64,000 nucleotides of DNA from Pseudoselenomonas ruminantium. Its GTDB lineage: Bacteria > Bacillota > Negativicutes > Selenomonadales > Selenomonadaceae. Below, piece by piece: positions 16,988-52,712 of the stretch. A program made the position numbers and the translations under genes. Positions within the stretch are counted from its first letter, which is position 1. Each line of letters opens with the position of its first letter. Where the stretch lies: NCBI GenBank assembly GCA_015058655.1, contig SVBX01000016.1:1-64000 (forward strand), written 5' to 3'. Under the pieces are notes generated by a model. That model was not told the DNA's origin. It saw only the letters and a list, made by a program, of their open reading frames with translations, and searched no databases.

Positions 16988-17014
16988 ATGCAGAGAAGGG
17001 AGCGTGTTTCTGTC

Positions 17015-17961
17015 ATGAGTGAGAAATTGGCTAAGTTAGCTTTGGGAACCTGGTCGTGGGGGTCTGGCACTGTTGGCGGTGACCAGGTTTTTGGCAACCA
17101 TCTGGAAAAAGAGGATCTGCAACCTGTTTTTGAAGCGGCCCTGCAGGTGGGACTGAATCTGTGGGATACTGCCACAGTTTACGGCATGGGAGCTTCAGAA
17201 GAAATATTGGGAAGCCTGATGCGGCAGCGAAAAAGGGACGAGGTGGTTGTTTCTACGAAATTTACTCCTCAGATTGCCGGCATGTATGAAGATTCTATGG
17301 CTAAGATGGCTGAAGCAAGCTGCCAGCGCTTGGGGATTGAAGTGATTGATATTTACTGGATTCACAATCCCCTGGATGTAGAAAGGTGGACTCCGGAGCT
17401 GATTCCCCTGCTGAAATCAGGCAAGGTCAGGCAAGTGGGCGTCTCCAATCACAATCTGGCACAGCTCAAGCGAGCCAACGAGATACTGGGCGCTGAAGGC
17501 TTTAGGGTAGCAGCGGTGCAGAATCATTTGAGCCTGATAAATCGTTTTTCCGAGCAGGCAGGAATTCTTGACTATTGCCGGGAAAATAAGATTGAATTCT
17601 TTGCCTACATGGTCTTGGAGCAGGGGGCTCTTTCCGGCAAGTACGATGTGGAGCATCCCTTCCCGGCAGATTCTGACCGGGGGAAGATGTATAATCCCCT
17701 CCTGCCTCAACTGGCAAAGCTGACCGCTGCCCTGCAGGAAGTGGGGGCTGCCCATCATCTGTCAGTGTCCCTTTGGCAATAGCCTGGGCCATTGCCAAAG
17801 GGACACTGCCCATCATCGGGGTGACGAAGATTCATCATGTGGCAGATGCGGCGGCTGCTGCCAAGGCAAGCCTTTCCGAGGCAGAAGTAAGGCACTTGGA
17901 AGCTGTGGCTGACAGTGCAGAGCTGTCAATGGCCCGGGACTGGGAAAAGATGATGTATTGA
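17015..17961 (+). pseudogene. Aldo/keto reductase with a frameshift inside a palindrome
   Basis: Residues 1-254 are a normal aldo/keto reductase barrel: LALGTWSWG, LWDTATVYGMG (catalytic Asp and Tyr), VVVSTKF (Lys), IYWIHNP (His) and VGVSNHN. At about 17775 the frame runs into a TAG. The missing C-terminal part continues in another frame as AIAWAIAKGTLPIIGVTKIH, ending WEKMMY at 17961. The break lies within a perfect inverted repeat at 17763-17808. The lost stretch carries the NADP 2'-phosphate-binding segment (GVTK), so the enzyme is probably inactive unless the reading is restored. The family usually has SQVAIAWAIA here, suggesting a local rewrite plus loss of one base. Confidence 0.85.
17763..17808. 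repeat. Perfect inverted repeat with 18-bp arms within the aldo/keto reductase gene
   Basis: CAGTGTCCCTTTGGCAAT (17763-17780) is exactly complementary to 17791-17808 around the 10-nt loop AGCCTGGGCC. It is inside coding sequence, not in a terminator position, and contains the frameshift. Confidence 0.92.
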
Positions 17962-18017
17962 GATTGTAGCAGCAGCTTGTGTTTTGCTTGCATCAGGTCA
18001 TGAAAGGCGAGAAGAAA

Positions 18018-40286: not shown

Positions 40287-40296
40287 ATTTAACGAT

Positions 40297-40336
40297 AAAA
40301 ATGAGCTGGCAGAAAACTGCCAGCTCATTTTTATTG
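40297..40336. terminator. Bidirectional terminator between tyrS and the MFS gene
   Basis: A perfect 16-bp stem (AAAAATGAGCTGGCAG and its complement) with an AAAA loop serves both converging genes. Confidence 0.88.
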
Positions 40337-52638: not shown

Positions 52639-52657
52639 GACACGGATTTTAAACAAC

Positions 52658-52702
52658 AAAAAGCCGTCAGCCCCCTTTCTAGTGGATGGCTGACGGCTTT
52701 TT
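52658..52702. terminator. Bidirectional terminator between the recombinase and hisIE
   Basis: A perfect 15-bp stem (AAAAAGCCGTCAGCC and its complement) separates the converging genes. Confidence 0.88.
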
Positions 52703-52712
52703 GCTTAAGTTG

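Follow-up and report, generated by a model that had tools for sequence, protein, structure and literature searches.

How an aldo/keto reductase (AKR) gene came to lose its reading frame exactly within a perfect palindrome is the question raised by this locus. It lies in the window, by which we mean the whole analysed stretch of 64,000 nucleotides, and belongs to a genome of 3.1 Mb in 50 contigs that is rated 99.99% complete and whose nearest named relatives by sequence are Selenomonas ruminantium strains. The 5’ part of the gene (MSEKLAK...LSVSLWQ*) is located at 17015–17782 on the plus strand. Its ORF opens at 16988, but the MSEK start at 17015 is the conserved one, and the TAM6421 orthologue likewise begins with MSEK. 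The frame is ended by a TAG at 17780–17782, inside the palindrome. The 3’ part (AIAWAIAKGTLPIIGVTK...WEKMMY*) is located at 17773–17961 on the same strand in another frame, in which the family sequence of the same gene resumes. When placed on the Pfam profile Aldo_ket_red (length 291) the 5’ piece matches positions 1–241 and the 3’ piece positions 243–290. Since the two pieces cover these parts of one domain, only the join is missing. Both the reading frames and the Pfam placement agree with the initial annotation of this DNA, which had described a single frame break located in the left arm of an inverted repeat.

The inverted repeat comprises positions 17763–17808. Its arms are 22 nt long (left arm 17763–17784, right arm 17787–17808, both given on the plus strand), are separated by a 2-nt centre (TG) and are complementary at 21 of 22 positions. 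The outer 18 bp, corresponding to 17763–17780 on the left, are perfect; the sole mismatch is found at 17781 and is followed by 3 more bp toward the centre. The coordinates and the perfect 18-bp arm given in the earlier description, with the frameshift inside, are exact. In the ancestral frame the right arm codes for AIAKGTL. Folding of 17755–17816 as single-stranded DNA gave -22 kcal/mol, in comparison to -7.85 ± 1.96 for shuffled sequences (z = -7.2). With a 2-nt centre and a 4-nt loop in the predicted fold, the arms are near enough to each other to fold at a replication fork. The palindrome is flanked by a 12-bp direct repeat, CTGCCCATCATC, with the left copy at 17748–17759 and the right copy at 17806–17817 on the plus strand, the latter overlapping the end of the right arm. 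The two copies are read in different codon phases, and only one other close repeat of this kind occurs in the window. Continuous copying was considered as the origin of this direct repeat and rejected, because fold-back would yield an inverted copy; the repeat is therefore unexplained by fold-back copying.

As background we used 447 kb of the source genome, consisting of the window and 20 other stretches (383-kb sample), and counted hairpins with a loop of up to 12 whose arms were perfect over 14 bp or more. Twelve hairpins were detected, and the 11 besides the one in the AKR gene are intergenic or located at a gene end; two of these 11 fall in called ORFs, close to the ORF start. A second hairpin of the AKR type, internal to a coding sequence, was not found in the 447 kb. 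Among 15 window genes with clear coding sequence (21 kb) the longest perfect arm was 10, and it was also 10 in 90 codon-resampled genes. A perfect arm of 18 bp that holds the sole frame break of its gene is not expected by coincidence. Elsewhere in the window, perfect inverted repeats with arms of 18 and 16 bp (40295–40334 and 52657–52703) are located between predicted ORFs and are terminator-like.

We compared the break site with 32 distinct orthologous sequences. All 32 read through the site in one frame, and neither the palindrome nor the frame break is present in any of them. An orthologue with the same perfect palindrome and an open frame, which had been named as the case that would speak against a palindrome-templated mutation, was sought among these sequences and none was seen. 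Where the source genome has CTT-TG, the orthologues encode Gln (Glu in one). Complementarity in the orthologues ranges from 0 to 5 of the 8 outer-arm positions and from 3 to 9 of the 10 inner-arm positions. The initial annotation had given SQVAIAWAIA as the family norm for this segment. This holds for distant relatives (Bacteroides, Clostridia), whereas in Selenomonadaceae the segment is (S/A)VAQVGTAWAIS or a close variant of it. The nearest orthologues with an intact gene are only ~70–76% identical, so that the ancestor had to be inferred; two of them are found in the genus besides the source genome (six genomes), at ~71–76% DNA identity.

The direction of copying can be read from genome G183, in which a 3’ remnant of the AKR gene precedes the very gene that lies downstream of it in the window. 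In the right-arm region the DNA of this syntenic remnant is nearly identical to that of the source genome (TGGGCCATTGCCAAAGGaACgCTGCCCATCAT versus TGGGCCATTGCCAAAGGgACaCTGCCCATCAT, two silent differences). Its left-arm region codes for SVAQVGTA, unlike the left arm of the source genome, which differs from all orthologues. Because G183 keeps the right-arm DNA and not the left, the right arm is ancestral and served as the template, while the left arm is the altered copy. Counted by eye, the left arm of G183 agrees with 6 of the 10 inner-arm positions and with about 2 of the 8 outer-arm positions. The new left-arm sequence is the reverse complement of the right arm, so that one event replaces several edits. 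With G183, TAM6421, G005, G025 and G165 each taken in place of the ancestor, linear derivation of the left arm took 12–13 edits (10 for G005), in comparison to 1–3 with one switch, the switch itself being uncharged. A single copying event thus saves 9–11 edits against these five real relatives. In a scan of the gene in 153 windows, with one edit charged per switch, the saving was 8 edits at the palindrome and at most 4 at the best unrelated site.

We therefore consider it very probable that the break is a real loss-of-function frameshift caused by a single template-switch (quasipalindrome) event. The palindrome-templated mutation put forward in the earlier description is the best explanation, given that break and palindrome are absent in orthologues, the right arm is conserved and one copying event saves edits. 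During replication the growing strand, having reached the left arm, would have switched to the right arm as template before resuming on its own. The left arm would thereby have received a stretch of 5–18 nt complementary to its partner, one base fewer than were replaced, resulting in a perfect 18-bp hairpin and the TAG stop. That it was one event is what we infer from the comparison, and the copying may have taken either of two routes. Fold-back within one nascent strand would need the bottom strand, on which the right arm is synthesised first; an intermolecular strand switch would need the top strand. The E. coli work on quasipalindromes (PMC7202029, PMC6357072) cites an intermolecular case on the leading strand (Rosche et al. 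1997). GC skew is positive at the locus, but it follows gene orientation, and for this reason we make no claim regarding the replication strand. At about 52000 in the window both the sign of the GC skew and the gene orientation change (plus strand before, minus strand after).

The length of the copied tract would depend on the ancestor. The minimal tract is CTTTG (17771–17775, plus strand), where orthologues have the Gln codon (Glu in one) and the next codon, six bases in total. The tract could have been as short as these 5 nt if the ancestor already read SQVAIAW. With an AQVGT-like ancestor a longer tract, TCCCTTTGGCAAT (17768–17780, plus strand; 13 nt replacing 14), is likely and could extend to 17763, since in that case the Ala codon before CAG-GTN and the Gly-Thr codons after it would have been overwritten as well. 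If the ancestor was AQVGTAWAIS-like, the copied tract may therefore have measured 13–18 nt and the ancestral sequence may have been only faintly palindromic. It had been expected that the ancestor would carry a palindrome differing only at the frameshift site; close relatives, which read AQVGTAWAIS, suggest a longer copied tract, and such an ancestor is not required. Whichever ancestor is assumed, the remaining mismatch at 17781 sets the boundary of the copied tract on the side of the loop. It is conceivable, at somewhat less than an even chance in our estimation, that the switch was primed by a loop-side anchor of a few bp and copied 13–18 nt, so that the palindrome was made almost from nothing rather than by correction of a near-palindrome. 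If so, short coding hairpins would be a by-product of fork errors needing little prior symmetry.

The allele was read from the assembled consensus of a draft genome, and hairpins are difficult templates. In a draft of 50 contigs a sequencing, library or assembly artefact, i.e. a fold-back chimera or a hairpin-induced error present in the consensus only, is the most probable of the alternatives; we regard it as unlikely. A chimera could reach the consensus only by dominating the reads, the genome is rated nearly complete, and the contig is clean elsewhere: no indel was seen in ~3.8 kb of flank that aligned to genome G004, which argues against an indel-prone assembly at this locus. Furthermore, real loss of this gene is expected a priori, because other lesions have destroyed it in three relatives. 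The same-genus G004 lacks 17011–17987 (plus-strand coordinates), with 17010 joined to 17988 and flanks that are 98.4% and 96.4% identical. In G001 ~17026 is joined to ~18002, so that ~17027–18001 is missing and the first AKR codons are kept (GTGAGTGAGAAA). G001 and G004 are the two closest genomes, 96–98% identical on both flanks, and in each the deletion measures ~975 bp; since the junctions differ, these losses look like separate deletions. In G183 the gene is cut to its 3’ end (~70 codons), beside a carboxymuconolactone-decarboxylase-like ORF. With two relatives having deleted the gene differently and a third keeping the 3’ end only, the AKR gene appears to be under repeated loss, which makes a real mutation likelier than an artefact. 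As the gene is dispensable in the group, such a mutation could also persist.

Dispensability would also suit independent small mutations, i.e. loss of a single base together with substitutions close by in a decaying gene, which by chance completed the palindrome, and the C-terminal part of the gene is indeed fast-evolving. The last third, from ~30 codons before the break (17675–17958 in the window), is far more diverged than the rest: dN against TAM6421 is 0.105 over codons 1–220, rises to 0.39 over the 32 codons that follow and is 0.34 over the final 61, in comparison to 0.156, 0.27 and 0.13 between TAM6421 and G005 for the same three segments. This divergence could stem from relaxed selection or from recombination with a distantly related copy (mosaic origin). 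Long-standing neutrality was judged unlikely, because dN is far below dS and a second lesion is absent. Since this third is unusually diverged, part of what sets the left arm apart may have arisen independently of the event. A coincidence of independent mutations would nevertheless take at least 3 edits within 6 bases, or 10–13 with respect to real relatives, and nearly all of these edits raise complementarity; in a synonymous-codon control the full 8+9 quasipalindrome arose in 5 per million samples. We consider this explanation very unlikely. A functional hairpin, acting as a programmed frameshift signal or as a transcription terminator that truncates the enzyme, would be in line with the strength of the hairpin, the stop codon within it and an N-terminal part of the AKR that is not accelerated. 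It is present in none of the 32 orthologous sequences, however, and the truncated protein would be without the conserved GVTK segment. An intrinsic terminator was rejected because the stem is followed by CCCATCAT and not by a T-run. Programmed -1 frameshifting was likewise rejected, as the shift site lies within the stem rather than 5–9 nt upstream of it, an in-phase slippery heptamer is absent (TCC CTT TGG) and the site is not conserved in orthologues. A functional role is thus highly improbable. The 12-bp direct repeat on both sides of the palindrome could be read as the target duplication of an inserted REP- or MITE-like mobile element, but the palindrome occurs in single copy in the genome, its sole match on each strand being itself; moreover, the right arm consists of coding sequence conserved in the family, and the protein alignment is continuous with no insert. 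We rejected such an element, whose probability we regard as practically negligible.

The single template switch that we prefer is a natural instance of a mutation class that is already known. Quasipalindrome mutations perfect a palindrome by copying of one arm into the other (PMC6357072, PMC7202029, PMC8604942). Such mutations are also reported to become more frequent when replication is mildly inhibited. Laboratory work in E. coli favours intramolecular copying with a leading-strand bias (PMC7202029, PMC6357072), and loss of function via template switching has been documented in T4 rII, E. coli rpsL and thyA, and yeast CYC1 (PMC8604942). The AKR case shares with the E. coli quasipalindromes (the thyA and rpsL hotspots and the lacZ reporters QP5 and QP6) the copying of one arm of a short inverted repeat onto its partner, simultaneous changes at several bases with a net indel, arms that end up perfect, and the inactivation of a gene (or, in E. 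coli, its restoration) (PMC7202029, PMC6357072, PMC8604942). In contrast to these measured hotspots, the AKR case is a natural event deduced from comparison with relatives of a Selenomonas-like genome, and its ancestral arms are uncertain and possibly far less complementary. Multinucleotide mutations attributed to template switching in Saccharomyces coding genes are similar in that arms are homogenised within the coding sequence and were found from orthologues; in the wild strains they are amino-acid replacements, whereas the AKR case breaks the frame (PMC8604942). In template switching that gives rise to RNA hairpins a perfect stem also arises in one event, but there the product is a structured RNA, while the AKR hairpin arose as a by-product within a protein gene on its way to loss (PMC8794818). 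Perfect inverted repeats within coding sequences are also described for Nematomorpha mitochondria; they are numerous, up to 284 bp long and coding in both arms, in contrast to the one event that destroys the frame here (PMC6649704).

The AKR locus thus offers a readable natural gene loss by replication template switching beyond laboratory hotspots, in which the direction of copying can be inferred from relatives and in which the same gene was independently deleted in close relatives. Frameshifts of draft genomes that sit in hairpins need not be sequencing errors, and a cheap screen suggests itself, namely for perfect palindromes in coding sequence that contain a frame break.

When searching for an intact allele we obtained no match of the same species in viral contigs. 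Among plasmids only pSRC1 of TAM6421 was recovered, at 79% over part of the gene. This 285-kb plasmid (NC_017078.1) carries the intact AKR orthologue within a redox-gene cluster, and because the TAM6421 copy sits on a plasmid the gene may move between replicons.
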